From positions 1-33,119 of the IMG/VR virus record IMGVR_UViG_3300007735_000629: DNA of 33,119 bases; one strand, given 5' to 3'. The position numbers and the translations under genes are program-made. Shown in pieces: positions 1 to 29,615 of this stretch. The notes under the pieces are model-generated. The model was given only the letters and a program-made list of their open reading frames with translations, ran no database searches and had not been told where the DNA came from. This DNA comes from a virus. Position 1 is the stretch's first letter; every line of letters starts with the position of its first letter.

Positions 1-31
1 CACGGAAGTGATTTTGTGCAAGCTTTCACGC

Positions 32-50
32 CCCCGGGGTTTCCCCGGGG
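32..50. repeat. GC-rich palindrome upstream of terminase
   Basis: Two copies of the self-complementary octamer CCCCGGGG (32-39 and 43-50) separated by TTT can fold into an 8-bp hairpin. It lies 35 bases before the terminase start. A terminator, or part of a packaging (cos/pac) region, are both possible. Only a short TTT follows, so termination is not well supported. Confidence 0.4.
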
Positions 51-84
51 TTTGGTGCCATTGTGGCAGGTTAGGGGGTAACAA

Positions 85-516
85 ATGGCGCGGGGGCGCA
101 AGGTTCAAACAAACACTTCGGCCAAAGTGGCAGAAGATGCCCCATCGGGGTTGACTAAGGAACAAGCGGACGCTTACCGGCGGATCCGTGCCCAAGTGGC
201 CCAAACCAACGGTACCGGAATATCGGCCGCCGATGAATCCATCTTTACCATGGCCGCTTGTCAGTTGGCAAGAGTGGAGGCGTTACGGAAAGAATCCCTC
301 AAGGTTCCTTGGATGCTTTCCGGCGTGGCCAGCGGGCAAGAGCGTATTCATCCAATTCATACCGAACTACGGGCGGCTGAAACCCAATTGAAGGCAACGC
401 TAACAACGCTTTGCTTGACCCCACGAGCGCGGAAGGGGTGGCGAAGCCAACCCGACGCAACGGGCGCCCCGGCGGATAAGGTGCAAGAAGACCCAATTCT
501 GAAGTTATTGGGTTAA
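85..516 (+). CDS. terS: phage terminase small subunit, P27-like
   Basis: This 143-aa protein is probably the DNA-recognition subunit of the packaging motor. It binds the packaging site and delivers DNA to the large subunit encoded next. The C-terminal half has the P27-family pattern: HP, then an amphipathic helix, then a 'LTPRAR' turn near residues 112-118, followed by a short tail. The length is normal for the family. The start ATG is preceded at a good distance by TTAGGGGG (71-78). The gene opens the late head-tail module, as terminase genes usually do. The assignment rests on pattern and on position before an unambiguous TerL, because small subunits diverge quickly. Confidence 0.8.
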   Translation: MARGRKVQTNTSAKVAEDAPSGLTKEQADAYRRIRAQVAQTNGTGISAADESIFTMAACQLARVEALRKESLKVPWMLSGVASGQERIHPIHTELRAAETQLKATLTTLCLTPRARKGWRSQPDATGAPADKVQEDPILKLLG

Positions 517-532
517 GGGGAAGGGGTGGAAA

Positions 533-718
533 ATGGAAAAGGCGGTTGCAAAGGATTTGCTTTATCGGGCTTTAGTTGACACCATTACCGACAAGTGGGG
601 CGAAGCGGAACGCAAGTTCGAGAAGTTGGCAACAGCCATTCGGGAACACCAGGCGGCCCAAGGGACGGAATCCGAAGCCCAAGCCAATTCCCGTTTGTGG
701 AACGCCCTAATTGACTAA
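533..718 (+). CDS. small helical protein of unknown function
   Basis: This 61-aa protein is mostly charged and predicted helical, with many Glu, Lys and Ala residues. No family is recognised. It sits between the two terminase subunits, 16 bases after the first and 10 bases before the preferred start of the second, so it is almost certainly co-transcribed and may assist packaging. A purine-rich GGGGAAGGGG stretch precedes the ATG. It ends just before the AAGG that serves the terminase large subunit. Nothing in the sequence identifies a catalytic role. Confidence 0.6.
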   Translation: MEKAVAKDLLYRALVDTITDKWGEAERKFEKLATAIREHQAAQGTESEAQANSRLWNALID

Positions 719-728
719 GGCAAAAACC

Positions 729-2312
729 ATGGCCAAAAAACGGCCAACCGTGAAGCGGGCGCCAATACTAAGGCCCGCTTCAGCGGAAATGGAATTGATG
801 CCTTCACAAAAGGTGGAGGCATTCTTTTCCAGGTTCCTTCGCCACTCCAAGGGGGAACATGCGGGCCGGCCGTTTGAATTGGCAGAATGGCAACTTCGGG
901 ATATTGTCCGTCCGTTGTTCGATACATTACGGCCTGACGGTTTGAGGCAATACCGAACCTGTTATGTAGAAATTCCGCGCAAGAATGGTAAAACTACCAT
1001 AGCGGCCGGGTTGGCCTTGTATATGTTGTTCGCGGACAATGAAGCCGGGGCGGAAGTGGTTTCGGCGGCCGCGGATCGGGAACAAGCTTCCATTTGCCTT
1101 GACCTAGCCAAAAGCATGGTTCAAGCAAGCCCTGATTTATCTTCCCGTTGCACGGTATACCGAAAGGAAATAGTAACCCACAAGGGCGGGCGTTATAGGT
1201 CCATTTCCAGCGAAGCGGCAACCAAGCACGGATTCAATCTTTCAGCCGTGGTGGTTGATGAAGTTCATGCCCAACCGGATCGGGAATTATGGGATACCCT
1301 GACCACGGCCACGGGCGCCCGGCGCCAACCGTTGACCATTGCCATAACCACGGCAGGGCATGACCGGGAAAGCCTATGTTGGGAATTGCATACTTATGCC
1401 CGAAGCTTGCTAGACAAGACGGCGGAAGACCCAACCTTTTTGCCCGTAATTTATTCCGCGGGCAATGATGCCGATTGGACCGTTGAAGCGACTTGGAAGG
1501 CGGCCAACCCTGGTTACGGGGTATCGGTGTTGCCTGATTATTTCCATCAACAGGTGATTGAAGCGAAGCAATCACCAGGGAAGGAACAAGCCTTCCGGCG
1601 GTTGCACCTTAACCAATGGACCGCCTCAAGCGTTCGATGGATTGCCCCGGAGAAATGGGATTCATGCCAAGGGGAAATGCCCAACCTTGCCGGGCGCCAA
1701 TGTTGGGCTGCCCTTGACCTTTCCAGCACAACGGACCTTTCCGCCCTGGTGTTGGCCTTCCCGATTGATGACAAAATATGGCTTCTTCCCTTTGCTTGGG
1801 CCCCACGGGCGGCCTTGGAGGTTCGGGAACGGCGGAACAAAACCCGGTTTGACAATTGGGCGCGGGCCGGGCATTTGCAGGCCACGGCCGGGGAAGTGAT
1901 TGATTACAACCAAATCCGGGAAAAGATTCTTGAGTTATCAAGGATTTATAGAATTAAGGATTTGGCCTTGGATCGCTGGAATGCGGCCCAACTAGCCCAA
2001 CAACTTCAAGCGGACGGCATGGAAGTTGTGGCCTTTTCCATGGGTTGGGCCACGCTATCCCCGGCAACAAAAGACTTTGAGGCCCTGGTTCTTTCCGACA
2101 AGATACGCCACGCGGGCCATCCGGTTTTAAGGTGGTGTGTGGGGAATACCGTGGTTGAAACGGATTCCCAAGGAAATACAAGACCAAGCAAAGCGAAATC
2201 GTCCGAAAAGATTGATTTAGCGGTAGCCGCCGTCATGGCCACGGCCCGGGCGCGGGTTCAAGCAATTGTTGGAACTTCGGTATACGAAGAACGGGGGTTA
2301 CGGGTCTTGTGA
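729..2312 (+). CDS. terL: phage terminase large subunit
   Basis: This 527-aa packaging ATPase-nuclease translocates DNA into the prohead through the portal. The N-terminal ATPase domain has the Walker A-like stretch IPRKNGKT (about residues 82-89). It is followed by a hydrophobic strand ending VVVDEVHA (about 175-182) as Walker B. The C-terminal nuclease domain has the RNase H-like acidic positions in AALDLSSTTD and in DLALDR, and a late Asp in KIDLAVAA. This is the Terminase_1 (HK97/phage BPP-like) type. I prefer ATG 729 because AAGG lies 8 bases upstream; an in-frame TTG at 711 overlaps the previous gene and lacks a good ribosome site. It ends in a 4-base overlap with the next gene. Confidence 0.95.
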   Translation: MAKKRPTVKRAPILRPASAEMELMPSQKVEAFFSRFLRHSKGEHAGRPFELAEWQLRDIVRPLFDTLRPDGLRQYRTCYVEIPRKNGKTTIAAGLALYMLFADNEAGAEVVSAAADREQASICLDLAKSMVQASPDLSSRCTVYRKEIVTHKGGRYRSISSEAATKHGFNLSAVVVDEVHAQPDRELWDTLTTATGARRQPLTIAITTAGHDRESLCWELHTYARSLLDKTAEDPTFLPVIYSAGNDADWTVEATWKAANPGYGVSVLPDYFHQQVIEAKQSPGKEQAFRRLHLNQWTASSVRWIAPEKWDSCQGEMPNLAGRQCWAALDLSSTTDLSALVLAFPIDDKIWLLPFAWAPRAALEVRERRNKTRFDNWARAGHLQATAGEVIDYNQIREKILELSRIYRIKDLALDRWNAAQLAQQLQADGMEVVAFSMGWATLSPATKDFEALVLSDKIRHAGHPVLRWCVGNTVVETDSQGNTRPSKAKSSEKIDLAVAAVMATARARVQAIVGTSVYEERGLRVL

Positions 2313-2755
2313 TTGACCTACCAGACATAAGGCAGGCCAAGGAACACGATTGCGGGCCAACCGCGGTTAAGGTGTTGCTTCGCTATTTGCGAAAGCGGCC
2401 CACCAAGGCCCAATGGGCCGGCCTGTTAAATGATCCGGTAGACGGCACGGACCCGCGGGCTATTGAAACCTGGTTGCGTGGCTTGGGCCTTTTGGTTTTG
2501 TCTGGTTCCATGAACTTGGACGATTTATCCCGGCTAACCAAGACCTTCCGTCCCGTGGTTTGCCTGATAACCCCATCGCATGGCGTGGGCCATTATGTGA
2601 CAGTTTCCGGGGTTTGTTCGGGAAAGGTTTGGTTCCAAGACCCGACAAACGGCCCTGCCTTTGTTCCAATTCCCAAATGGAAAACCCAATGGTTGGAAGT
2701 GGACCGCCTAGGCGCGGACTATCACCAATGGGGTATTGCCGCGTGGCGGCGCTAA
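2309..2755 (+). CDS. C39-like cysteine peptidase domain protein
   Basis: This 148-aa protein consists of little more than a papain-fold peptidase domain of the C39/NlpC-like type. DCGPTA places the nucleophile at Cys15, GHYV gives His95, and QDP gives Asp111. The spacing and order match C39 (bacteriocin-processing) peptidases. No signal peptide or transmembrane segment is visible, so it probably acts in the cytoplasm or in the virion. It starts with GTG overlapping the TGA of the terminase by 4 bases, which implies translational coupling. A peptidase between terminase and portal is unusual, since the normal prohead protease is also present further on. Its substrate is unknown. Confidence 0.7.
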   Translation: MIDLPDIRQAKEHDCGPTAVKVLLRYLRKRPTKAQWAGLLNDPVDGTDPRAIETWLRGLGLLVLSGSMNLDDLSRLTKTFRPVVCLITPSHGVGHYVTVSGVCSGKVWFQDPTNGPAFVPIPKWKTQWLEVDRLGADYHQWGIAAWRR

Positions 2756-2797
2756 TCGGATAAGCAATATCTTAATGTGCCAATTGGAGAACCCAAT

Positions 2798-4327
2798 ATG
2801 GGCCTTGTTGACACTATCCGCAACTGGTTTGGCGCTGAAAGGCGTTCAAGCTATTCCTTGCGTGATCCCGCATTGGTTGCCCTATTCGGCGGACATGAGG
2901 CCGAATCGGGGGTATCCGTAACAGAAACAACGGCCCTTCAGTCTTCGCCAGTTTGGGCGGCGGTTCGTGTCATATCTGAAGGGGTGGCAAGCCTTCCCCT
3001 CCATCTTTATCAGCGGGAAGGGCGTGGGCGGACCAGGGCGGACGGCCACCCGATTTATACCCTCTTGCGGGATATGCCCAACCAGTACACCCCGGCCTTG
3101 GCCTTCCGGGAAGCCCTTTTGGCCCATGCCCTTTTGTGGGGCAACGGATACGCGGAAATTGAGCGTGATTTATTGGGGCGGCCGGTGGCCCTTTGGTTGT
3201 TGCGTCCAGATTTAATGCGGGTTGAATCCCGGGAAGATGGTTCCCCGTATTACCTTTACCGGCCGCCGGGCGCCAGCGAAACGGAATTGGAACCTTCGCA
3301 AGTCTTCCATATCCGCGGCCTTGGATTTGATGGTTACCGTGGTTATTCGGTGGTTGAAATGGCCCGGGAATCCTTGGGCTTGGGCATGGCGGCGGAACGG
3401 TTCGGCGCCCGCCTGTTTGGTAGTGGCGCAAAGCCTTCCGGGGTTCTGACAACTCCCGGGCATTTATCGGATGATGCCTTAGCCCGCTTGCGCCGTGATT
3501 TTTCCACCATGCATCAAGGGTTAGCCAATTCCCATAAGGTTGCCATCCTTGAAAACGGCCTCCAATGGCAATCTATTTCCATTCCACCGGAAGATGCCCA
3601 ATTCCTACAAACCCGTACTTTTCAACTGGCCGAAGTGGCCCGTTGGTTCAATATCCCGTCAAGCAAGCTTCGGGATAACGGCGGGAAAAGCTACGCCACG
3701 CTGGAACAAGAAAACTGGGCGTTCCTTTCGGAAACCTTGAGGCCTTGGTTGATCCGTATCGAACAAGAGGTCCACTCAAAGCTTTTGATGCCCTACGAAA
3801 AGGGCCAATACTACGCCGAACACCTGGTGGAAGGTTTGCTTAGGGCGGACCTCATGACCCGGTACAACGCTTACGCAATAGCCCGGAATTGGGGGTGGTA
3901 TTCGGTCAATGATATTCGGGCCATGGAAAACTTGGACCCGGTGCCCGGTGGCGATGTTTATTTGCAGCCCCTAAACATGCAGCCATTGGAAAGCCCTTTG
4001 GGGGCCAATGCCCCAACGGCCACCCCGGCGGTGGGAATTGCCCCACCCGGCGCTACTGGCGCCGTCCCCCTTCCCGATTCCCCCGCCGGGGCTTCGCCAA
4101 CAAACACCGTGGATACGGAAGAAAACGAATTGCCCACGGTTCGGGAATCGGTAGCGGCCTTGTGTGACCTGATGACGGCCCACCAAATCCCGGCTTGTGA
4201 ACACGGATCAACCAACCGTTGCCGGATTTGTGGAATTGAGCGGGAACGGGTTTTGATTCCGCCCAAGAAGCCCGGCGGTGAACATGCATGGGGCGTGAAG
4301 TGGGTTCCGATTAACCCGGGGGCCTGA
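2798..4327 (+). CDS. phage portal protein, HK97 family
   Basis: This 509-aa protein forms the dodecameric portal ring at the head vertex through which DNA enters and leaves. The HK97-type core is clear: VWAAVRVISEGVASLPLHLY near residues 50-70, PDLMRV, the FHIRGLG segment, and RWFNIPSSKLRD. The start ATG 2798 is chosen because GGAGA lies 7 bases upstream. An earlier in-frame GTG at 2777 has no such site. After the core there is a Pro/Ala-rich linker, then an odd C-terminal tail with a CEH-x5-CRIC cluster (bases 4197-4232) that looks metal-binding. That tail is not part of the usual family and resembles a motif in the 13997-14293 protein. Confidence 0.93.
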   Translation: MGLVDTIRNWFGAERRSSYSLRDPALVALFGGHEAESGVSVTETTALQSSPVWAAVRVISEGVASLPLHLYQREGRGRTRADGHPIYTLLRDMPNQYTPALAFREALLAHALLWGNGYAEIERDLLGRPVALWLLRPDLMRVESREDGSPYYLYRPPGASETELEPSQVFHIRGLGFDGYRGYSVVEMARESLGLGMAAERFGARLFGSGAKPSGVLTTPGHLSDDALARLRRDFSTMHQGLANSHKVAILENGLQWQSISIPPEDAQFLQTRTFQLAEVARWFNIPSSKLRDNGGKSYATLEQENWAFLSETLRPWLIRIEQEVHSKLLMPYEKGQYYAEHLVEGLLRADLMTRYNAYAIARNWGWYSVNDIRAMENLDPVPGGDVYLQPLNMQPLESPLGANAPTATPAVGIAPPGATGAVPLPDSPAGASPTNTVDTEENELPTVRESVAALCDLMTAHQIPACEHGSTNRCRICGIERERVLIPPKKPGGEHAWGVKWVPINPGA

Positions 4328-10190: not shown

Positions 10191-11949
10191 AACGGCAACA
10201 GAATCCCTAAATGGCGCCGGACCGCCCAAGGGTGGCAAAGCCCGTGGAGCGGAAGACATGGAGCGCGGCGCCAAGGCCGCGAACAAGGAAGGCCGTTCCC
10301 TTATTGGAACTTGGACCGAATTTAAAAGCCAACTTGATTTGGCCGTTGGGGCGGCCAAGGGCATTTACACCCTTACAAGTTCATTTCTTGAAATGGGCGC
10401 GGCCCTTGAATCATCCCAAATCCGTATGGCCTACTTTTCCGGTTCATGGGAAGAAGCCGGCAAATCCCTTGACCATTTGCGGAACCTATCGGTTGATTCC
10501 GGGATTGCGTTTTCTGAACTAACCGCGGGTATGCAGAAATTGGCCAATTCTGGCCTTTCCATCCAAACGGCCACCGGCTTGATGGAAAGGTTTGCCCGTG
10601 GCGCCGAAATCATGGGGCAGGGCGGTGCCGAAGCCATGGCGGGGGCTACCAGGGAACTACTACGCGGGGCCGTTGCTTCCGAAGGGGCCTTGGCCCAATT
10701 GCAGGAAAAGGGCTTGGATGTTTACGGTTCCCTTGGCGATGAGTTAGAAAAACTGACCGGAAAATCTTACACCACGGAAGAAGCCCTTCGTGCCATTCGG
10801 CGCGGGGCCATATCGTCCGCTACGGCTATGGATGCCATCCTTGCGGCCGCGGAAAGCCCCAAAGCCATGCAGGCCCAAGCCCGCTTCCTTGGTTCGTTTG
10901 AAGGTCAAATGTCCCGCCTCAAGACGGCTTGGGAAGAATTAACCCGTACCATGTCCCAAATGTTGTTGAAGTCTTTTGACTTCACGGCCATAGCGGCCGG
11001 TGCCCGGGGCGTGTTTTCTGCCGTGCTTGATATCGTCAAGAAGATTTCTGAAATTTTTCTTCCCGTGATTGATCCGAAGGACAAGGCCGCCGGGATTGAA
11101 AAGACCTTCCGGGCCTTGCGTGATGCAACCTTTGCCATTGCGGAACGCATTGGTAAGGCCGTGGTTGAACTATCGGCCACCATGGAAGGGGTGTTTGCCG
11201 TTGTACAAGCGGAAATGAACAAGCTAATGAAACGGTTGGAATGGGGTGTTGCCGGTATATTTGCGGGGGATCAAATTGAGCGATTCAATGAATCCGAAGA
11301 CAAGGTAGCCAAGGCCCGCATTGCCCGGGCTAATCAAAATAAGGAAAGGGATTTGGCAGGTATTACAGCATTTTTCAAGGGGCTAAATGCCGACGCAAAG
11401 GCCAAGGATATTGCCCGTGATGCCGAATTAGCGGCGGCGGCTCAAGGCAAGGGCGCCGATGCAGCGGAAAAGGCGGCGGAAGCCGCCAAGAAACAGCGGC
11501 AACAAATGGAATTGGCCGCCAAGTCTTTCGAGCAACTGGCCCTTGATTTGGAAAGCCAATTTGCCACCCCTATTGAGCAATTTAACCGAAGCATTGAAGA
11601 CGCTAACACCAAGCTATTGGCGGCCCAAAAGAACAACTTGCTGAAGCCTGAAATGCTAGGCCGCGTGGAAGCTGGCCTTCAGCGGCAAGTGGGACAAGAC
11701 ATTATGGAGTTGCTAAAGAACAACGGCACGGGAACCAATTGGCAGGCGGCCCGGGCGGAACGGGGTTCCGCTTCCGCGGCCGAAGCGATCCTTCGCAACC
11801 GGTTTGGTGACGAAAGCAAGAACATTCAGCAACGAATTAAAGATGCTTTGGATCGGGCAAACATGCTGGCCAAGGCCCAATTGGATGCCCAGCGTGAAGC
11901 GGTGAAGGCTTTCCAGAATGCCAAACCGGGCGTTATTGCGTTCAATTAA
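10093..11949 (+). CDS. tail tape measure protein
   Basis: This 618-aa protein sets tail length and takes part in DNA ejection. It is rich in Ala, Lys, Glu and Gln, and is largely helical with long coiled coils (residues 10-60 and 390-480). A central hydrophobic region (about 300-380) contains segments such as VFSAVLDIVKKISEIFLPVI. The 'MGAALESSQIRMAYFSGSWEEAGK...L' stretch near residue 100 is the typical tape-measure N-terminal domain. The start is GTG 10093 with GGAGG 8 bases upstream; the TTG at 10078 lies before that site. The length would correspond to a short tail, roughly 90 nm if 1.5 angstrom per residue applies. Confidence 0.88.
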   Translation: MASLSRVNVQVGFQGQEALAGMQKLEAEAKKLETATESLNGAGPPKGGKARGAEDMERGAKAANKEGRSLIGTWTEFKSQLDLAVGAAKGIYTLTSSFLEMGAALESSQIRMAYFSGSWEEAGKSLDHLRNLSVDSGIAFSELTAGMQKLANSGLSIQTATGLMERFARGAEIMGQGGAEAMAGATRELLRGAVASEGALAQLQEKGLDVYGSLGDELEKLTGKSYTTEEALRAIRRGAISSATAMDAILAAAESPKAMQAQARFLGSFEGQMSRLKTAWEELTRTMSQMLLKSFDFTAIAAGARGVFSAVLDIVKKISEIFLPVIDPKDKAAGIEKTFRALRDATFAIAERIGKAVVELSATMEGVFAVVQAEMNKLMKRLEWGVAGIFAGDQIERFNESEDKVAKARIARANQNKERDLAGITAFFKGLNADAKAKDIARDAELAAAAQGKGADAAEKAAEAAKKQRQQMELAAKSFEQLALDLESQFATPIEQFNRSIEDANTKLLAAQKNNLLKPEMLGRVEAGLQRQVGQDIMELLKNNGTGTNWQAARAERGSASAAEAILRNRFGDESKNIQQRIKDALDRANMLAKAQLDAQREAVKAFQNAKPGVIAFN

Positions 11950-11961
11950 GGGACGGGGCAA

Positions 11962-12885
11962 ATGGCTTATACATATTTCGGGGAAATACACGAAGGCCGG
12001 CAGGCTTCCGTAGATTCCAAGTTTCAACGAACCTATACCCGGGTTTTCCTGGTGGGGACGGATTCCGGCCTATATGGGCCGTATTACGCCGGTTCCCACC
12101 CTTCCTTGCCGGTTATCTATTCAAGCCATCCGGAAGACCCTTACGCTTTTTGTGTGCGATTGGCGCCCACCCAAGATGGCGAAGACCCAACCTTGTGGCG
12201 GATAACCGCGGAATACTCTTACAACCTTGACCTTGGAAACGGAACCGGCGGTGGCACGGGTAACCCTTCGGTGGATTCCCAACAGGCCGGACAAGCCCCC
12301 GGGGATCGGGTGGCCAACCCGCTTACTAGGCCACGGGATTATACGATTTCATCCGGTACATATCCCATGGCCATATTAAAGGCCCGCAACCCTTCAACCG
12401 GGGTTTATGACAAGGCCATCGACAATTCAGCGGGCGATCCGTTCTTTCCACCCGTGGAAATCCAACGGGCGGAAGCAACCATATCCGTTGGCCTGAATGC
12501 CACAAGTAGCCCTTCGGCCGCGTGGCTTGGTTCGGTTGGTTGCGTGAATGCCAACAGTATGGTTATTGGCCCCTATGTGGTTGGGGTTGGGACGGTCAAG
12601 TTAAACAAGGTTGGTGCCAATTTGGTTTATGAAAATAATGTTTCCTATTGGCGGTGGCAATTAGAATTTGGCTATCGGGCAACATGGGCTTTTGAATTGC
12701 TTGACCAGGGGCTAAGGGAATTGAGGGGCGGGAACCTGGTTCCCATTATTGACCCGGCCACGGCTTTGGAGGTTTCCCAACCGGTCTTGTTGAACGGGGC
12801 GGGAAGTAAGGCTTCAGCCGGGGCTAACCCTACCTTCCGGGTGTTTGATGTTTACCCGCGGGTAGCCTTTACAACCCCAATCTAA
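11962..12885 (+). CDS. putative distal tail protein, unknown family
   Basis: This 307-aa protein is not recognised. It follows the tape measure by 12 bases, where distal tail or baseplate hub proteins are normally encoded. It contains many Tyr, Gly and Pro residues and alternating beta-strand patterns. A GNGTGGGTGNPS linker (about residues 92-103) separates two domains. The second domain includes WRWQLEFGYRATWAFELLDQG, which could pack as a tail-hub beta structure. No transmembrane segment or signal peptide is visible. The role is inferred from position only. Confidence 0.6.
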   Translation: MAYTYFGEIHEGRQASVDSKFQRTYTRVFLVGTDSGLYGPYYAGSHPSLPVIYSSHPEDPYAFCVRLAPTQDGEDPTLWRITAEYSYNLDLGNGTGGGTGNPSVDSQQAGQAPGDRVANPLTRPRDYTISSGTYPMAILKARNPSTGVYDKAIDNSAGDPFFPPVEIQRAEATISVGLNATSSPSAAWLGSVGCVNANSMVIGPYVVGVGTVKLNKVGANLVYENNVSYWRWQLEFGYRATWAFELLDQGLRELRGGNLVPIIDPATALEVSQPVLLNGAGSKASAGANPTFRVFDVYPRVAFTTPI

Positions 12886-12894
12886 GGCGGACAA

Positions 12895-13584
12895 ATGGCC
12901 GGCTATCTGTTAGATGACGGTTCCGCAAAGCGCCTTGGGCGCATGCTTCACGCTTACGAAAATGGGGAAATCAGCGACGGCCGGCGCGGCCTCCACAACA
13001 CCCAACGGGCGCGGGCAACCCCGCCGGTTAATGTTGTCTTGGTTACCGGGGCCATGGATGCGGCCGGTTGGTGGCCGGGCTATGTTCGCATATGGGACAA
13101 CGAAGCCAAGGTCTATAACAACGGTACGGTTTGCCGTATTCGGGAAATCAACAGGGCAAACCTTTCTAGGATTCAATACCTAGGGCGCCTTGCCGGTTAC
13201 GATGCTGGCCCAACCTCCACCACGCCGGATATTCCAGTTTACCTGGTGCAATACCGTGAAACGGTCCAAAGTGGTTCCGGATCGGGAAGTGGTTCCGGAT
13301 CGGGTAGTGGTTCGGGTGATAGTAATTCGGGTTCTTCATTATCCGGTTCATTTGATTCGGGTTCCGGTTCTTTTGAATCAGGTTCATTTGATTCTGGTTC
13401 CGGTTCTTTTGAATCCGGTTCATTTGTTTCAGGTTCAGAAGGGTCAACAGGTTCCGGTGGTTCTTCACCATGCGGTACATCGGGTTCTTTGTTGGTTGAA
13501 GTGGTTACAAATGTTCAATGTATTAACGGGGAAATTGTGGTAACCAAAAGCACAATAGCTATACCCGGCGGGGTTATCTGCTAA
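12895..13584 (+). CDS. Ser-Gly-repeat tail-associated protein
   Basis: This 229-aa protein has two parts. The first, about 120 residues, is globular and begins LLDDGSAKRLGRMLHAYENG. The second starts with an SGSG run and continues with SFDSGSGSFESG repeats, then a short Cys-containing end (CGTSG...CINGE). The Ser-rich stretch has almost no charge and would be extended and flexible, like a linker or a sugar-acceptor region. The gene follows the probable distal tail gene by 9 bases and overlaps the next in TAATG. It is likely a virion fibre component. The neighbouring glycosyltransferase makes glycosylation of its Ser residues a reasonable, untested idea. Confidence 0.65.
   Translation: MAGYLLDDGSAKRLGRMLHAYENGEISDGRRGLHNTQRARATPPVNVVLVTGAMDAAGWWPGYVRIWDNEAKVYNNGTVCRIREINRANLSRIQYLGRLAGYDAGPTSTTPDIPVYLVQYRETVQSGSGSGSGSGSGSGSGDSNSGSSLSGSFDSGSGSFESGSFDSGSGSFESGSFVSGSEGSTGSGGSSPCGTSGSLLVEVVTNVQCINGEIVVTKSTIAIPGGVIC
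13348..13419 (+). repeat. 36-bp tandem repeat in Ser-Gly protein
   Basis: Two near-identical 36-base units (13348-13383 and 13384-13419) encode the 12-residue unit SFDSGSGSFESG. They are followed by a partial unit beginning TCATTTG. Preceding bases (about 13270-13320) carry a shorter GGTTCCGGATCGGG-type repeat encoding SGSG. Such repeats can change copy number by slippage or recombination. Confidence 0.85.
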
Positions 13585-13997
13585 TGGCCATTGTTAATAT
13601 TGGCCCTTGCGGATGCTGTAATTTGGGTTGTTGCCCAAACCCTCCACAAACCTTGCATGTCACGATTACGGCAACGGGTGATTGTGGATGTTGGGCTGGT
13701 TCGTTCAATCTAACATATAATATAAATTCAAACACATACGAGAACAATTTTAAGCCTTGTGGATACCCTATTGGCGGTTTTGTCTTTTTGTGCGAAGGTA
13801 ATAAATATTATTTAATTTCAACATATCAAAATGATGAACCAACTCTTGGGGCAGGGTGTATTTTGGGTTTGGAAAGTGGGAATATAGTAACTCCAACATC
13901 GTGTTCACCTTTTTATCTGGAATTCACGGCAAGCGTTTTGGAATACCTAGGCGCCACTTGTTGCAGCGGTTCGGTTACGGTGATTATTACGGAGTAA
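13584..13997 (+). CDS. Cys-rich beta protein, possible adhesin
   Basis: This 137-aa protein has about fourteen Cys residues, in clusters CGCC, CC, CGC and CC plus singles, spread through a beta-rich sequence (LHVTITATG, FNLTYNIN, SVTVIITE). The pattern suggests a disulfide-stabilised or metal-bound sandwich domain. No known family is recognised. It starts at ATG overlapping the stop of the Ser-Gly protein, so the two are translationally coupled. Its base composition is clearly more AT-rich than that of the tail genes before it. A receptor-binding or tail-tip role is inferred from position and fold style. Confidence 0.6.
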   Translation: MAIVNIGPCGCCNLGCCPNPPQTLHVTITATGDCGCWAGSFNLTYNINSNTYENNFKPCGYPIGGFVFLCEGNKYYLISTYQNDEPTLGAGCILGLESGNIVTPTSCSPFYLEFTASVLEYLGATCCSGSVTVIITE

Positions 13998-14293
13998 TGA
14001 TGATTTTGCCATGCAATCATGAATTGGAAAGACCAGTTAATAATTGCAGAATATGTGAATTGAATTTAACAAGAAAAGACTATTCCGTCCTGTTTAGGTC
14101 AAGAAGTATTCAACAAGCCAAACGGGTGTTTCGCAAACCATGTATTTATCTTGGACCTCTTTTAGAGGTGAAGCCGCTTTGCGGTTGCGGTTCCAAGCAT
14201 GAATGCCTAAAGCATGGGCAATGTGTCTTAAACGGCAACACAAAAGAATATAAAGTATGTAGCCAATGCACGGATTATTCACCAGGTGTTTAG
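13997..14293 (+). CDS. zinc-binding-type small protein, unknown
   Basis: This protein of about 98 aa is packed with Cys/His clusters: CNH-x7-CRIC near the N-terminus, CGCGSKHECLKHGQC in the middle, and CSQC at the end. It probably binds two or more zinc ions. Two starts are possible, ATG 13997 (overlapping the previous stop) or ATG 14000 (5 bases after GGAG). It ends just one base before the glycosyltransferase start. The composition is AT-rich. The first cluster resembles the C-terminal tail of the portal protein. A role as partner or regulator of the next enzyme is conjecture. Confidence 0.6.
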   Translation: MMILPCNHELERPVNNCRICELNLTRKDYSVLFRSRSIQQAKRVFRKPCIYLGPLLEVKPLCGCGSKHECLKHGQCVLNGNTKEYKVCSQCTDYSPGV

Positions 14294-14294
14294 T

Positions 14295-15821
14295 ATGTGG
14301 TTTCCTGGGTTTTCCGATCCAATTCCCGAACCTGAACTTTCCCCCATGCCCGCGGATTGGCCCCACCAGGCGGGCCAAATAACCCGGCACCTTGCCGGCC
14401 TTAAGCGCATTCTTGACCAATCGTATTCAGGCCCCAAGGAAGCCCGCGGAACGGGAATCCTTTGGGTGGGTGGCGGGCCTTACTGGCCCGGGGTGGTTAT
14501 TGGAATCAGGTTGCTTCGGGAAATGGGGTGCAACCTCCCCATTCAGGTTTGGCACCGTGGCGACTTGGAACCGGTCAACCTTGACCTACTCCAAGGGTAT
14601 GGCGGTATCACCATTGTTAATTCGGTGGAATTTGCCAAACAGATTGGCGGTTGCCGAATTCTTCGCGGTTGGGAACAAAAGCTTCTGGCCATAGCCCATT
14701 GCGGATGGGAACGGTTGTTATTTCTTGATGCCGACGCCTACCTGGTTGAACAGCCGGAACCAATCCTTGACCAATTGGACAAGGCGCCTTTTGTGTTTTG
14801 GGAGGATATGGACCACAACTTGGCAACGGTCAAATGGGATAAGGTTTGGCCGGAAGGCCCCAACGGGGTTCCGCCCATCCAAGGCGGTCAACTGGCCATC
14901 GACCGCGTTGAAGCTTGGAAGGTGATTTTGGCCGCCCATTGGATGAATCAGCATTCGGATTTTTACTTTTCCCATATGTTTGGTGATCAAGACACTTGGC
15001 GTACCGTGCTTGCGGCCATCAACAATCCGCGGGGTTGGTTAAACCTTGGCAAAGCGCCTTGGAGGGGAACGGCGTTCCTTTGCTCCTTGCCCGATAACAA
15101 GATCCGGGTTGTTCATCGGTGCCAAGGGAAGCTTATGCGCCTTGGGGATATTCCCAAGGGCCGGCAAGGCTACAATTCCCCCCAATGGGCCTACCCAAAG
15201 GAAGACCGTGTATTTCAGCTATTAACGGAAATCTTGAGGGCGGAAGAAAAGACGGCGGAAGAAACCTTTGGCGCCATTTACGCAAAAGACCTTTGGGCCG
15301 GTGGGGCTAGTTCCGGCACCGGGTCCATTGGTCAAGAAGCCCAAGCTTACCTTGGGTTAATCAACACCCTGGTAAGGTTCACCGGGGCCCAATCCGTGGT
15401 TGATTTGGGTTGTGGTGATGGTGCCATTGGTTCTTTGGTTCAAGCCCCTAACTATACCGGGATTGATTGTTACAAGCCACATATTGACCGGTTGCGGCAA
15501 GCCCAACCCCTTCAAAAATGGGTTCATCTAGATTTCTTTCGGGATAGGTCTTCCATCCCTTCCGGGGATGTTCTTCTCTGTAAAGATGTTCTTCACCATT
15601 GGCCCAACGATTGGGTGGTTTCTTTCCTTCGTTGGGTCAAAGCGGAAGGCCGTTGGAAGCGGTGTTTCTTCACGCAAGACTACCAACAAATCACGGATGG
15701 GCAGGATACCCACTTGGGCGGTTATCGGGCTTTGGACCCGGCAAAATATCCCTTGAAGGATTTGGGCTTAACCATGGTGGTTCCGTACCACCACAAGGCT
15801 TGCCTTATGATGGAGTTGTGA
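14295..15821 (+). CDS. glycosyltransferase-methyltransferase fusion
   Basis: This 508-aa protein appears to carry two enzymes. Residues about 50-320 form a GT-A type glycosyltransferase: GGGPYWPGVVIGIRLLRE, a QVWHRGD strand, LLFLDADAYLV with the metal-binding DAD (Asp145, Asp147), and GGQLAIDR with FGDQDTW further on. This resembles alpha-mannosyl/GT8-like enzymes. Residues about 340-508 form a class I SAM methyltransferase: VVDLGCGDG (368-376), YTGIDCY, and DVLLCKDVLHHW. ATG 14295 follows the previous stop by one base. The gene is within the tail operon, so the acceptor may be a tail protein or a host surface sugar. Substrates are not readable from sequence. Confidence 0.82.
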   Translation: MWFPGFSDPIPEPELSPMPADWPHQAGQITRHLAGLKRILDQSYSGPKEARGTGILWVGGGPYWPGVVIGIRLLREMGCNLPIQVWHRGDLEPVNLDLLQGYGGITIVNSVEFAKQIGGCRILRGWEQKLLAIAHCGWERLLFLDADAYLVEQPEPILDQLDKAPFVFWEDMDHNLATVKWDKVWPEGPNGVPPIQGGQLAIDRVEAWKVILAAHWMNQHSDFYFSHMFGDQDTWRTVLAAINNPRGWLNLGKAPWRGTAFLCSLPDNKIRVVHRCQGKLMRLGDIPKGRQGYNSPQWAYPKEDRVFQLLTEILRAEEKTAEETFGAIYAKDLWAGGASSGTGSIGQEAQAYLGLINTLVRFTGAQSVVDLGCGDGAIGSLVQAPNYTGIDCYKPHIDRLRQAQPLQKWVHLDFFRDRSSIPSGDVLLCKDVLHHWPNDWVVSFLRWVKAEGRWKRCFFTQDYQQITDGQDTHLGGYRALDPAKYPLKDLGLTMVVPYHHKACLMMEL

Positions 15822-15823
15822 GA

Positions 15824-16066
15824 ATGGAATCCATCCAATTTATCCGCGAATTTGGCCTTCCCGTAGCGGCCCTTGCGGTTATTGCTTATGCCTCTTGGCA
15901 TGGCGCCGAATGGATTGCGGCCAATGTGGTGATTCCATTAAGGGATCGGCACTTTGCGTTTCTTGAATCACTTGAGGGGACATTGGACGCAATAGCCAAG
16001 ACGCAAGCCCAGTTGGTCCGCGAAATTGAACGGGTGGCTTCCGTTTGCAAAGGAAGGCCGGAATGA
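15824..16066 (+). CDS. small single-pass membrane protein, holin candidate
   Basis: This 80-aa protein has one strong transmembrane segment (about residues 12-36, LPVAALAVIAYASWHG and following). A charged, coiled-coil-like C-terminal half of about 45 residues follows. GGAG lies 8 bases before ATG 15824. It overlaps the next gene in ATGA. One-helix proteins of this size placed after tail genes often serve as holins or spanin-like lysis partners, but no specific holin family is recognised. The location two genes before a peptidase gene is consistent with a lysis cassette. Confidence 0.6.
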   Translation: MESIQFIREFGLPVAALAVIAYASWHGAEWIAANVVIPLRDRHFAFLESLEGTLDAIAKTQAQLVREIERVASVCKGRPE

Positions 16067-16707
16067 TTGCCTGGTTGCTATTACTGGCCGGTCAAGAATT
16101 GAAATTACCCCCGGAAGTGAAGGGGGAACCCGCGGCCTTCGTTTCCATCGTGGCGGAAACCCCGGGGAAGGTTGTCCGGTTTGTCCCCCTTGACCCGGGG
16201 TTATCGGTGTTTCCGGCGGCCTTATTAAGCAACCCCAAGGCCACCGTTGTGGTGGCCGCCAAGGCGGGGCGCTATCGGGTTCTGGCTTATACGGCGGTTG
16301 GAGAAATACCTTCCGAACCGGCGGTTACAACCGTGGTTATTGGTGGAGGCGGCCCGCCCGATCCACTTCCACCAGGTCCGGCGGAAGACCCGTTGGCGCG
16401 AAGTTTGGCCAGTATTTATGGAGGCCTTCAGGAACCGGGTAAAGCGGCCACGGTGGCGGCCTTGGCCAAGGTCTACCGGGCCGCGGATGCCTCCAATTGC
16501 GCCACCCTTGGGGAATTCCACGGGTTGTTACTGAATTTGGCCAAAGGTGTTGCGAATAACCTATGTGTCCCCCTTCGGGAACGGTTGGCGGAACACCTGA
16601 CGGCCACCCTTGGCGAAAATCCCGCAACGGTTTTGGATGATGCGGCCAAGGCCCGAATCAAATCAGAAATGGCCCGCATAGCCTTCATTCTAGAGGGCTT
16701 GAAATGA
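16063..16707 (+). CDS. secreted protein of unknown function
   Basis: This 214-aa protein starts with a short hydrophobic leader (MIAWLLLLAGQ), probably a signal peptide or a minimal anchor. A beta-rich domain (about residues 20-100, AAFVSIVAETPGKVVRFVPLDPG onward) follows. Then come a GGGGPPDPLPPGP linker and a helical C-terminal domain with two Cys. The start has AGGAAGG 5 bases upstream. It shares 4-base overlaps with both neighbours. Domains of this type are seen next to peptidases in planctomycete-like phages, which I state from general impression rather than a match. A role in the envelope or lysis is inference. Confidence 0.6.
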   Translation: MIAWLLLLAGQELKLPPEVKGEPAAFVSIVAETPGKVVRFVPLDPGLSVFPAALLSNPKATVVVAAKAGRYRVLAYTAVGEIPSEPAVTTVVIGGGGPPDPLPPGPAEDPLARSLASIYGGLQEPGKAATVAALAKVYRAADASNCATLGEFHGLLLNLAKGVANNLCVPLRERLAEHLTATLGENPATVLDDAAKARIKSEMARIAFILEGLK

Positions 16708-17609
16708 TTAACGGCTTGTATCAAACGGGGTGGGTCCGGGATGATGAAGCGGTTGATTCCCTCTTGGGGGAATTGCCTTTTCCCGTTGCCGGGTCCACTC
16801 CGGCGGGCCAAGTGGAAGAAATCCCTGATCATATTTTTTTATGGGAAGCCGTTAAGCGGGTAACGGGGAAATTGCTTCCGCCACGCGATCAAGGCCAAGT
16901 GGGAAGTTGCGTTTCCTTCGGCACGGTTCGGGCCGTGGAATACTCTCAAGCTTGCGAAATCGTGGCCGGGGAACAGGAAGAACTTTTGGACCTTGCAACG
17001 GAAGTAGTTTATGGCGGTAGCCGGGTAGAAATTGGTGGTGGCCGGTTGCGCGGTGATGGTTCGGTGGGGGCTTGGGCCGCTGATTGGGTTCGTAGGTACG
17101 GGGTATTGGCCCGATTGGAATACAAGACCCAAAAAGGCGAATATGACCTTCGCCATTATTCGGAAACCAGGTGCCGGGATTGGGGCGCAAAAGGAGTGCC
17201 GGATGACCTCGAACCCCTTGCTAAAGCCCATCCGATTAAACAAACCACGCAAGTAAGAAATTGGGCGGAAGCCAAACGGATGTTGGCTTCAGGCTACGGA
17301 ATAGCCGTTAGTTCTGACCAGGGTTTCGGCATGAAGCGGGATTCCAACGGGGTGGCTACCCCGTCCGGTTCTTGGGCGCATTGCATGGCCCTGGTGGGGT
17401 ATTGCACCATAGGCGGCCGGGAATATGGGCGTATCGACAATTCATGGGGCGGGGAAGCCCATACCGGGCCAACAGGCCCGGGTAACCCGGGGCCTGAAGG
17501 TTTTTGGGCCGATTCCGTGGTGATTAACCGGATGTTGGGCCAAGGGGATAGTTGGTCGTTTTCTTCCGTGGAGGGTTTCCCCGCCCGGCGCCTTCGGTGG
17601 TATGTGTGA
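16704..17609 (+). CDS. papain-like (C1) cysteine peptidase
   Basis: This 301-aa protein carries all four papain catalytic positions: RDQGQVGSC (Gln63, Cys69), SWAHCMALVGY (His226) and DNSWGG (Asn246). The motif is DQGQVGSCVSF where classic papain has a GQCGSCWAF-like sequence, so the disulfide Cys before the nucleophile is missing. The domain covers nearly the whole protein and lacks the usual inhibitory propeptide and signal peptide. It is coupled by 4-base overlaps to the genes on both sides. It could act in entry or exit through host surface proteins. This phage has no recognisable murein endolysin, which makes this a candidate lysis enzyme. Confidence 0.82.
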   Translation: MINGLYQTGWVRDDEAVDSLLGELPFPVAGSTPAGQVEEIPDHIFLWEAVKRVTGKLLPPRDQGQVGSCVSFGTVRAVEYSQACEIVAGEQEELLDLATEVVYGGSRVEIGGGRLRGDGSVGAWAADWVRRYGVLARLEYKTQKGEYDLRHYSETRCRDWGAKGVPDDLEPLAKAHPIKQTTQVRNWAEAKRMLASGYGIAVSSDQGFGMKRDSNGVATPSGSWAHCMALVGYCTIGGREYGRIDNSWGGEAHTGPTGPGNPGPEGFWADSVVINRMLGQGDSWSFSSVEGFPARRLRWYV

Positions 17610-24391: not shown

Positions 24392-26524
24392 ATGGAAGAT
24401 AACGCATTGCTTGAGGCGGCCTTGGGATATGCAAGCCTAGGGTATCCGGTATTTCCATGCCGTCCCGGCCGCAAGTTGCCGCTAACCCAACACGGCCGGA
24501 ATGATGCCAGCACGGATGAAGAAACCATCCGGCGTTGGTGGGAAACCAACCCCCGGGCCAATGTGGGCTTGGTTACGGATGGGTTGCTTGTTGTCGATGT
24601 TGACGGTTCCGACAACGCATGGCCAGCGGACCAGGAACTAGCCGTTGATCTGGTGGCGGCCCCAACCAGCGTTACCCCGTCCGGCGGGCGCCATCATGTG
24701 TTCCGGCAACCCGCTGGCAGGGGTTGGCGGTCAACCGCTGGCCGCGTGGCCTCCAAGGTCGATACCCGGGCGGACGGGGGGTATATCGTCGTTTCCCCGT
24801 CCGTCTTGGAGGATGGGGGCCAATACCAATGGATTGATGGGCTTGAATTGGATACGCCACGGGAAGCCCTTGGCGAACCGCCGGCCTGGTTGGTTGGGAT
24901 GTTGGACCAATTGGCCGCGGGTCGGGGCCCCGGCAAGCTTCCCACTAGCCAAGTTATCCTTGGCGACTCCAATCCCATCCCGGACGGCCAGCGGAACGCA
25001 ACGCTGGCCCGGCTTGCCGGAACCATGCGGCGGGCGGGTATGTCCCGGGGGGAAATTGGTTCCGCCCTCCATCGGGCCAACCAAGACCGTTGCGTACCGC
25101 CGCTATGTGAATCGGAAGTGGACCGCATAGCGGAAAGCATTTCCCGCTACGAACCGGACCAAATCACCGTTGCCCTGGTGGAAAACCATTGGGGGCAAAT
25201 GGCCGGGGAAGCCCCACCCGTTATTGGTGGGCCGGTGGACCCCGGACCATTTCCCCACCACTTGTTGGAGGTTGATGGTTTTTTGGGCATGGTATGCCAA
25301 ACCATCCTTGCAAATTCCCACCGGCCCCAACCCATCCTTGCCCTTGGGGCTTCTCTTTCCTTGCTATCCGTGGTGGCGGGCCGAAAGGTCAGGGATGAAA
25401 TCGACACACGGCCCAACCTGTATTCCATTGGGGTTGCCCCATCGGGTGGAGGGAAAGAAGCGGCACGGCGGGTTATCAAAGATTTACTTTACCTTGCCGG
25501 CGCGGGGGATCGGGTAGGGGAAGGCATTGCAAGCCATGCGGGCCTAGTTACAGCCGTTGCTCAAGCCCCATCTTCCATTTGGTTATTGGATGAAGTGGGC
25601 CGGTGGTTCCGGTCCGTTGGCACGGGGGCGGCCAATGCGGCCCCGCATTTGATGGGGATTGTAACCAATCTTCTCAAGCTTTATTCATCTTCCAACACGG
25701 TATTCCTTGGTGATTGCTACGCTGACCCATCCAAAAAGGTTTCGGTTAATCAACCCAATGTGGTGATGTACGGCACCACGGTTCCCCAATCCCTTTACGA
25801 AGGGTTAAATGCGGAATCCATCACGGATGGGCTTTTGGCCCGCGTCATGGTTTGGGAAGCCCCGGCCACCCGGCCACCCAAGCAAAAGCCCCAAGCAGAA
25901 CCGCCTTCCCCATCCTTGGTGAACCTGATCCGGGAATGGTTGGCGTGGGTTCCTGGTAGCGGGAACCTTGCGAACGAAAATCCCCAACCATACACGGTTC
26001 GGGCCACCCCGGAAGCGGCCGCCATCCTTGACGCCATGGATGAAACCGCGGATGCCCGCCTAGACGAACTGGGGGAACCCCTTGGCACCTTGTGGACCAG
26101 GGCCGCCGAGAAAGCCCGCAAGCTGGCTTTGTTGCGGGCGTGTTCCTCCACCATTTATCCGGGGCGGGCCGGATTTGAAATTGATGAAGCGGCCGCCCGA
26201 TGGGCTTGCGAATTGGCCACTTGGGCAACCGAACGGATGATTTATCTGGCCCACCAATGGGTATCGGATGGGGCCTTTGACTCCAAGCGCAAGCGGGTAT
26301 TGAGGGCAATTGAGGCTTCAGGGAAAGATGGGCTAACCGGGTCCGAATTGTGCCGAAGAACGCAATCACTCAGTCCCCGCGAACGGCAGGAAGTGCTTGA
26401 AGCATTGGTTCAATCCGGGGAAATCAATCTTTCAATTAGTGATTCAAACCGGCCCGGAAGAAATGCAACCCGATATTTTGCGGCAAAAGTGGGGGTAAAC
26501 CGGGCGACAACATTAATTCAATAA
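24392..26524 (+). CDS. primase-polymerase/helicase fusion
   Basis: This 710-aa protein joins three parts. Residues 1-190 are a primase-polymerase (Prim-Pol, AEP) domain with GLLVVDVDG (Asp69, Asp71), SGGRHHVF (97-104) and ADGGYIVVSPS (127-137). About 200-260 is a PriCT-like helical domain. About 290-520 is a DUF3987-like ATPase, with Walker A-like APSGGGKEA near residue 350 (Glu replaces Ser/Thr after Lys) and WLLDEVG near 400. A winged-helix end (EASGKDGLTGSELCRR) may bind DNA. It primes and unwinds DNA in phage replication. The ribosome site before ATG 24392 is weak. The gene directly precedes the probable origin. Confidence 0.88.
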   Translation: MEDNALLEAALGYASLGYPVFPCRPGRKLPLTQHGRNDASTDEETIRRWWETNPRANVGLVTDGLLVVDVDGSDNAWPADQELAVDLVAAPTSVTPSGGRHHVFRQPAGRGWRSTAGRVASKVDTRADGGYIVVSPSVLEDGGQYQWIDGLELDTPREALGEPPAWLVGMLDQLAAGRGPGKLPTSQVILGDSNPIPDGQRNATLARLAGTMRRAGMSRGEIGSALHRANQDRCVPPLCESEVDRIAESISRYEPDQITVALVENHWGQMAGEAPPVIGGPVDPGPFPHHLLEVDGFLGMVCQTILANSHRPQPILALGASLSLLSVVAGRKVRDEIDTRPNLYSIGVAPSGGGKEAARRVIKDLLYLAGAGDRVGEGIASHAGLVTAVAQAPSSIWLLDEVGRWFRSVGTGAANAAPHLMGIVTNLLKLYSSSNTVFLGDCYADPSKKVSVNQPNVVMYGTTVPQSLYEGLNAESITDGLLARVMVWEAPATRPPKQKPQAEPPSPSLVNLIREWLAWVPGSGNLANENPQPYTVRATPEAAAILDAMDETADARLDELGEPLGTLWTRAAEKARKLALLRACSSTIYPGRAGFEIDEAAARWACELATWATERMIYLAHQWVSDGAFDSKRKRVLRAIEASGKDGLTGSELCRRTQSLSPRERQEVLEALVQSGEINLSISDSNRPGRNATRYFAAKVGVNRATTLIQ

Positions 26525-28350: not shown

Positions 28351-28534
28351 TGACCGTTTGCTAACGGCTTCCGCCTGGTTGCGGCGGGCCCGGAAATTGT
28401 TCCGGGAAGCCCAAGACCTTTTGGAACTGGCCATCCTTGAGCGGGAAGAAGGATCGGCCAATGGTGGGAATTCCCGTGGTGATGGGGAAGGGGAAGATGA
28501 TGCGGATTCAGGCGGAACGGCGGAAGCTACTTGA
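28265..28534 (+). CDS. small overlapping-frame protein, unknown
   Basis: This 89-aa protein has a helical first half (QDQLLMVLTDAIQLVAK, ASAWLRRARKLFREAQDLLELAILEREE) and an acidic, Gly-rich tail. GGAGGG (28252-28257) lies 7 bases before ATG 28265. It overlaps the DUF3310 gene by 86 bases and the clamp gene by 38 bases, each in another frame, so parts of three genes share the region. It could be a real small protein or an artefact of the overlaps. The good ribosome site argues for a real gene. Confidence 0.5.
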   Translation: MDQHHQDQLLMVLTDAIQLVAKTGTAAGDDRLLTASAWLRRARKLFREAQDLLELAILEREEGSANGGNSRGDGEGEDDADSGGTAEAT

Positions 28535-29615
28535 CGCGGTGGCCACGGTTGCGGCCGTGGTGCCAAACAAGCCAACCAAGGAAATCTTGGGCAACCTGGT
28601 TATCAAGGCGATGCAAAACGGCCAAGGGCTGATTTATGCAACGGATTTAGAGGTTGCAATTGAGGCCGGTGTTGAAATTGCTGAAGTGGTTATCGCTGGC
28701 ACGGTCTTGGTCCCGGCCGCCCAATTGCTAGGTATTTTAAAGGTGATTCCTGAAGGCATGGTAGAACTTCGGGAATTGTCCAACATGTCAGTAATGGTGA
28801 TTGAATCGGGAACCCTTTGGTACGAATTACCCCTGGGGGAAATAGATTCATACCCTGATCTTGGCGCCCCGGATTATGGTTGGGCGGTTGAAGTTTCCAA
28901 CAACGAATTGGCCGAAGGGGTTCGGGCGGTATCGGATAAAGCGGCCACGGAATCGGCGCGTTTCAGCATGTGCGGGGTTCAGTTGACCCCTACCCCCCTT
29001 GGCTTAACGGCCGTGGCCACCGATGGGCGCCGGCTGGCAATCAAGGAAATCCGTGGGGTTAAATCTGGGGAGGGCCAAGGCAAGCCCTGTATCATCCCGA
29101 TCAAGGCCGTGGGGGTTCTTGAGAAAATGTCTTGGCCAACGGCCCAAGTGTCGTGGGGCCCCAATGGCGCGGCCGTCCGGTTCTTTGCCAACGGTGAACA
29201 AGGCCCGCTTTGGCGGGTTACGGTTTCCACTCGTTTGGTGGAAGGGCGGTTTCCGGACTATAAGGCGGTATTGCCCACCACGGAAGCGGCGGGAAGCTTC
29301 CGGCTTCAGGCTGAAGCCTTGGGCGTGGCCATCCGGCAGGTGGCCATGATGAAAGACCCTGAAACGGGCAAACTTTCCTTGGCGGTTGATAAGTGCAAGC
29401 TAGCCCTTACCACAAGGAGTGCGGGGAAAGCCCATTCAATGGTGGAAGTGGATTCCGTGGGGAAACGGCAGGAAATAGCCGTGAACCCGGATTACCTATC
29501 CGAAGCGGTGAAGCCAATTACCGGGGAAGCTTCGGTGGAGTTGTGGGGGCCGGAAAAGCCCCTTTTGGTGACTGGCCAAGGCGGGTATACCTGCCTGGTT
29601 ATGCCACTTAGTTGA
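28497..29615 (+). CDS. dnaN: DNA polymerase III beta sliding clamp
   Basis: This 372-aa protein is a beta clamp, the ring that tethers polymerases to DNA. The family layout is clear over the whole length: an N-terminal domain with RKLLDAVATVAAVVPNKPTKEILGNLVIKA, a central domain with RFSMCGVQLTPTPLGLTAVATDGRRLAIKE, and a C-terminal domain ending YTCLVMPLS, similar to the VMPM-type end. The length is normal (E. coli 366). Starts at ATG 28497 or 28500 follow a GGGGAAGGGG site. The earlier in-frame starts read through the overlapping gene. A phage clamp without a phage replicative polymerase suggests it loads on host Pol III or displaces the host clamp. Confidence 0.92.
   Translation: MMRIQAERRKLLDAVATVAAVVPNKPTKEILGNLVIKAMQNGQGLIYATDLEVAIEAGVEIAEVVIAGTVLVPAAQLLGILKVIPEGMVELRELSNMSVMVIESGTLWYELPLGEIDSYPDLGAPDYGWAVEVSNNELAEGVRAVSDKAATESARFSMCGVQLTPTPLGLTAVATDGRRLAIKEIRGVKSGEGQGKPCIIPIKAVGVLEKMSWPTAQVSWGPNGAAVRFFANGEQGPLWRVTVSTRLVEGRFPDYKAVLPTTEAAGSFRLQAEALGVAIRQVAMMKDPETGKLSLAVDKCKLALTTRSAGKAHSMVEVDSVGKRQEIAVNPDYLSEAVKPITGEASVELWGPEKPLLVTGQGGYTCLVMPLS

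Follow-up and report, generated by a model that had tools for sequence, protein, structure and literature searches.

Virion glycosylation is known from few phages. Known GT71 glycosyltransferases extend glycans rather than initiating them; those of yeast reside in the Golgi and elongate O-mannose, and MNT2 extends mannose linked to serine or threonine. Virion glycosylation has been reported for mycobacteriophages Che8 and Rita (Freeman et al. 2023, cited in PMC11256854). In the chlorovirus PBCV-1, protein A064R joins two rhamnosyltransferase domains to a methyltransferase and makes a capsid N-glycan of this algal virus (PMC9614988). Among bacteria, the surface proteins called SRRPs are served by dedicated glycosyltransferases and accessory Sec export (PMC5578698, PMC6973325). 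The locus analyzed here places a glycosyltransferase-methyltransferase (GT-MT) fusion beside a Ser-Gly-tract protein among the tail genes of a phage.

This phage is represented by an uncultivated siphovirus-like contig of 33,119 bases, the whole of which is the window. Terminase, portal, S78 protease, HK97-type capsid, connector and tail genes follow one another in that order, and replication genes sit downstream. A Prim-Pol/DUF3987 primase-helicase-like protein is encoded at 24392-26524 and a DNA polymerase III sliding clamp at 28437-29615. An integrase is encoded on the minus strand, and neither tRNA nor Rfam RNA was detected in the window. The motifs may resemble those of planctomycete prophages. 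An earlier sequence-only reading had placed four coupled genes in the tail operon, and they are indeed there: four contiguous open reading frames at 12895-15821, all on the + strand, with stops overlapping or abutting starts, have a tail protein on one side and a putative lysis cassette on the other. Just 5′ of them, as part of the backbone and outside the cassette, is the gene for a conserved 307-aa tail-region protein (11962-12885, + strand). On the 3′ side, positions 15824-17609 encode a small holin-like protein, a 220-aa protein and a papain-family (C1) peptidase, an order also present in L013, L019, L025, L009 and L100. Pfam scans of the main ORFs revealed neither a lysozyme nor an amidase nor any further wall hydrolase, so the peptidase is a candidate for the lysis enzyme, an unusual choice if so.

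The first cassette gene (12895-13584) encodes a 229-aa protein with an N domain (residues 1-120), a Ser-Gly tract (about residues 126-190; 13270-13464, + strand) and a C-terminal hairpin. It is followed by a 137-aa Cys-rich protein (13584-13997), a 98-aa zinc-type Cys protein (13997-14293) and the 511-aa GT-MT fusion (14286-15821, with an alternative ATG at 14295). The tract, Cys-rich and zinc-type proteins gave no matches to Pfam, PHROG or NCBIfam models. Of the 65 tract residues, 29 are Ser and 21 are Gly. The best 60-residue window of the tract reaches 75% Ser plus Gly, whereas 13 other ORFs of this contig do not exceed 33%, and its serines are encoded by five of the six possible codons; the tract is thus neither a product of chance nor a DNA-level repeat. 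Both the N domain and the hairpin, which carries VVT..C.G....T.IPGG, are conserved. An AlphaFold2 model is confident at residues 45-120 and at the hairpin (199-223), with residues 127-192 disordered. Fold searches with this model matched two phage proteins at E ≤ 0.001 and gave weak OB-fold-like matches in the PDB (best E 0.011), so that an OB-like N domain is a guess. In another contig, L058 (positions 2-3265; also in L059), several tandem copies of the N domain end a 1088-residue repeat-rich open frame resembling a long tail fibre.

The enzyme matches Pfam PF11051 over residues 55-172 (E 1.2e-12; 48.2 bits, cut-off 22). Its GT71-type domain covers about residues 55-316 and contains a DAD motif (148-150) that is invariant across relatives. 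The SAM methyltransferase domain covers about residues 360-511, with model matches at 362-455 (Methyltransf_11 and Methyltransf_2 marginally over their cut-offs) and a conserved motif I, VDLGCGDG. Five relatives went into an AlphaFold2 model, whose confidence is modest (pLDDT 62.7). Its Foldseek matches include class I O-methyltransferases and yeast MNT2 (GT71; 7xjv, E 1.7e-5), although the PDB matches of the GT are partial. The protein is a PF11051/GT71-type glycosyltransferase fused to a class I SAM methyltransferase, with the corresponding activities predicted, and the earlier claim of an enzyme with both a DAD site and a SAM domain is borne out. Exact peptide patterns of the fusion had no matches in viral or genome collections, tblastn of the GT at E 0.01 had none in 50,697 cultured-phage records, and tblastn against plasmids returned no GT71-type relatives. 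Relatives of the locus were found through the capsid and the 307-aa tail protein, and further GT-MT relatives required an alignment-based search.

With the 307-aa protein as a marker for collecting related phages, relatives were found in 36 viral contigs (52% identity in L003), and a search of bacterial genomes with its alignment found none. The sequence-only reading had proposed a survey of the neighborhood in related phages and had named a lack of conservation as grounds for dropping the idea; the neighborhood proved strongly conserved, in dozens of IMG/VR contigs. Every contig that has the 307-aa protein and at least 2.9 kb downstream shows the same order: an N-domain protein, mostly with a low-complexity tract, at least one Cys-rich protein, a zinc-type Cys domain and a glycosyltransferase. 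In longer contigs the holin-like protein, the 220-aa protein and the papain-family peptidase then follow.

Three enzyme classes occupy the glycosyltransferase slot. Class A (the window, L013-L016 and L100-L114) has a PF11051 GT with a methyltransferase; class B (L017-L026 except L024, and L050-L089) has a GT2-family enzyme without one; and class C (L024, L032, L035, L038, L041, L042 and L044) has a zinc domain fused to a PF11051-type GT, again without a methyltransferase. The earlier suggestion that the enzyme adds a sugar and then methylates it is therefore compatible with the fusion in class A, but methylation would be an optional addition confined to one class of the three. The zinc-type protein carries the motif CxH...CxxC plus C.YLG...C.CG...C...GxC...C..C, and its putative zinc-binding character is taken solely from this Cys/His spacing; the L003 homologue is 43% identical, with the Cys and His residues conserved. 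Because class C enzymes, like those of L116 and L117, carry a homologous domain in one chain with the GT, we read the zinc-type protein as a probable partner of the GT. Of 25 surveyed loci retrieved with the class B enzyme, 18 carry the zinc motif, at 160-220 bases ahead of the GT start. Six aligned class B proteins share an invariant DxH. This motif fits a mucin-type GalNAc-transferase (GT27), but the sequence search does not back that identity: a profile search ranks PglI first and gives GalNAc-T12 an E of only 0.93. A second GT2-like protein of another type is encoded near the cassette in L025 (14668-15522) and, directly after the GT, in L058, perhaps a sign that certain class B phages use more than one sugar. 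The large-phage GT2 homologues (L090-L097) served as a contrast set: six of the 25 surveyed loci, from contigs of 41-165 kb (L090-L093, L095 and L097), encode class B-type homologues without a zinc domain or tracts.

The kind of tract follows the kind of enzyme. We surveyed 66 contigs that contain the tract-protein N domain. GT71-type enzymes were accompanied by Ser-Gly tracts in 20 of 22 contigs, the other two being tractless, and GT2-type enzymes by mucin-like Thr/Ser tracts in 33 of 33; among the 53 contigs with both a tract and a GT there were no crossed pairs, in raw counts that include related contigs and are uncorrected for relatedness. By class, Ser-Gly tracts occur in 15 of 15 contigs in A and 5 of 7 in C, where L038 and L044 keep the GT beside a tractless N-domain protein, and Thr/Ser tracts occur in all 33 of B, 25 of which were classed by the class B enzyme search after motif-scan misses (the truncated L018 also by locus survey). 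Thinning by N-domain similarity left 10 Ser-Gly/GT71-type, 10 Thr/Ser/GT2-type and 1 tractless GT71-type contigs, a distribution with Fisher p = 1e-5 when phylogeny is ignored. In the tree of the 307-aa protein, the class A contigs L015 and L016 are nested in the class B clade (support 97/96) and separate from the window, L013 and L014, so enzyme class and tract type have switched together more than once. The shorter N-domain tree likewise demands several changes, with weaker support. In L015 and L016 the N domain is closer to class B (48-50% identity, vs 36-41% to class A), whereas the C-terminus is closer to class A (68-84%, vs 52-61% to class B). The exchange point therefore lies inside the tract-protein gene, near the tract.

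Base composition also points to exchange. Genome GC3 is near 57%, and values of 56-62% hold for the window's tail protein, N domain and GT, against 28-35% in the tract/C-terminus, Cys-rich and zinc segments, which form an AT-rich island at 13261-14293, from the tract through the zinc gene. The Cys-rich protein itself has a GC3 of 35%, vs about 57% in its neighbors. L015 has a similar AT-rich Cys/zinc block (10534-11252). Between the window and this contig the Cys-rich protein is 77% identical, compared with 56% for the 307-aa protein and 50% for the GT, and together with the shared island this would indicate recent exchange of the Cys module. L100, the closest relative over most of the block, carries a different, short Cys protein in the slot. 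Such swapping is the pattern that an adhesin or receptor-binding module would be expected to show, its binding role being hypothetical. The sharp difference in composition between the GT and the tract-Cys-zinc block of the window means that the two were not acquired together in recent time. A CxW-type Cys module has Thr/Ser flanks in class B and a Ser-Gly flank in L103, the one clear class A case.

The arrangement of the genes, their domain families, their conservation and the agreement of tract with enzyme lead us to consider it fairly probable that these genes are a dedicated cassette for O-glycosylation of a tail protein, with sugar methylation added in the window's class. The Ser-Gly-tract and Cys-rich proteins would be exposed tail proteins, presumably adhesins. 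Across the cassettes the GT would modify Ser (or Thr) of the tracts; in the window the GT71-type domain would place a hexose-like sugar on serines of the tract, the zinc-type protein probably docking the GT to its substrate, and in class A the fused methyltransferase would next cap the tract sugar with a methyl group. Since known GT71 enzymes are extenders, the first sugar may need another enzyme. The glycan would stiffen and shield the disordered stalk on which the exchangeable Cys-rich module is displayed, and it may help attachment. The tract had been proposed from the start as an acceptor for O-linked sugar; its chemistry does follow the GT family, which lends that proposal independent support, and attachment remains a prediction. 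More tentatively, and at somewhat less than even odds, a widespread group of uncultivated phages may possess an acceptor-matched tail glycosylation system of exchangeable adhesin cassettes, each with its own tract (Ser-Gly or mucin-like Thr/Ser), a cognate GT family and a zinc-type targeting protein, in which tract and enzyme change as lock and key and one branch adds sugar methylation.

The chief weakness of the glycosylation reading is that the pairing may reflect linkage alone, since neighboring genes can move together. In its fullest form this alternative makes the tract a mere flexible or extended linker in an exchangeable adhesin, the block recombining as one unit and the GT, with or without its methyltransferase, acting elsewhere on the virion, for instance on the Cys-rich module or the hairpin. 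Ser-Gly stretches are classic flexible linkers, the tract is disordered in the model, and the segments adjoin and move as blocks. Against a plain linker stands the distribution of the tracts: in 23 loci all 95 are found no more than 4.5 kb upstream of the GT, with none in the other 254 kb, and the same tract type recurs in several separate proteins of one locus. The pairing also reappears in phages with other tail genes. In L116 and L117, where queries with the window's tail proteins had no matches, a zinc-GT71 fusion directly follows a large protein with Ser-Gly tracts. These observations, together with the composition gap between GT and tract block, argue against pure linkage, and we regard the linker explanation as unlikely.

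A second alternative, also raised in the sequence-only reading, is that the enzyme alters host surface glycans, in seroconversion or superinfection exclusion, and that its position in the late operon is an accident of acquisition. Temperate phages often carry GTs that modify the host surface, and the window does encode an integrase. But in all relatives the GT is fixed between tail and lysis-type genes, outside any lysogeny module; the GT-MT looks soluble, and its adjoining genes include no membrane partner (flippase or bactoprenol GT). Host modification would also leave the tract pairing unexplained. Position in the tail operon and the match of tract to GT thus disfavor this role, which we judge improbable. 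Glycosylation as a mere intracellular folding or protease-shielding aid, keeping the low-complexity and Cys-rich proteins soluble before assembly with no role for the sugar in attachment, would parallel the serine-rich-repeat adhesins that are glycosylated inside the cell before export (PMC5578698) and suit a gene block that also encodes a papain-family peptidase, but the methyltransferase fusion of class A suggests that it matters which sugar lies outermost, and we hold this to be very improbable.

Returning to dedicated tail glycosylation, the kind of tract, where one is present, always matches the kind of enzyme beside tail genes, and this suggests a virus that adorns its tail with sugar. 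The overall interpretation of the sequence-only reading is partly supported. From comparison of sequences alone, an acceptor (the tract), its enzyme and a rule for their pairing can be predicted in dozens of phages, and the rule makes the acceptor specificity of viral GTs testable through swapped pairs. It is also relevant to the construction and protection of phage adhesin stalks.

It is useful to set the locus against the systems it most resembles. Like mycobacteriophage virion glycosylation, it would link phage-encoded GTs to glycans on virion proteins. The acceptors described there are major capsid proteins, whereas those predicted here are low-complexity tail-region tracts beside the GT, their chemistry matched to the GT family. 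With PBCV-1 A064R, whose methyltransferase O-methylates the terminal sugar of the virion glycan (PMC9614988), it shares a viral GT-MT fusion; unlike A064R, the window's enzyme has one GT71-type domain and one methyltransferase, belongs to a tailed phage and has a predicted Ser-Gly tract acceptor. It resembles the GT71 mannosyltransferases (MNN1/MNT2, PF11051) in its Pfam match over the cut-off, its DxD-type metal motif in a GT-A fold and its fold match to MNT2, although the Pfam match covers positions 1-126 of the 273 in the profile. As at SRRP loci, a low-complexity Ser-rich stalk protein is encoded beside a putatively dedicated GT; unlike them, the locus belongs to a phage tail region and uses other GT families, and the Pfam-scanned ORFs of the window contig, which is possibly partial, include no SecA2/SecY2 (aSec) genes. 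Searches of literature outside subscription journals turned up no tract-matched GT cassette with a zinc-type partner. Phage virion glycosylation and viral GT-methyltransferase fusions are thus already known; what is new, as far as that literature reaches, is the matching of tract chemistry to enzyme family, together with a zinc-type partner.
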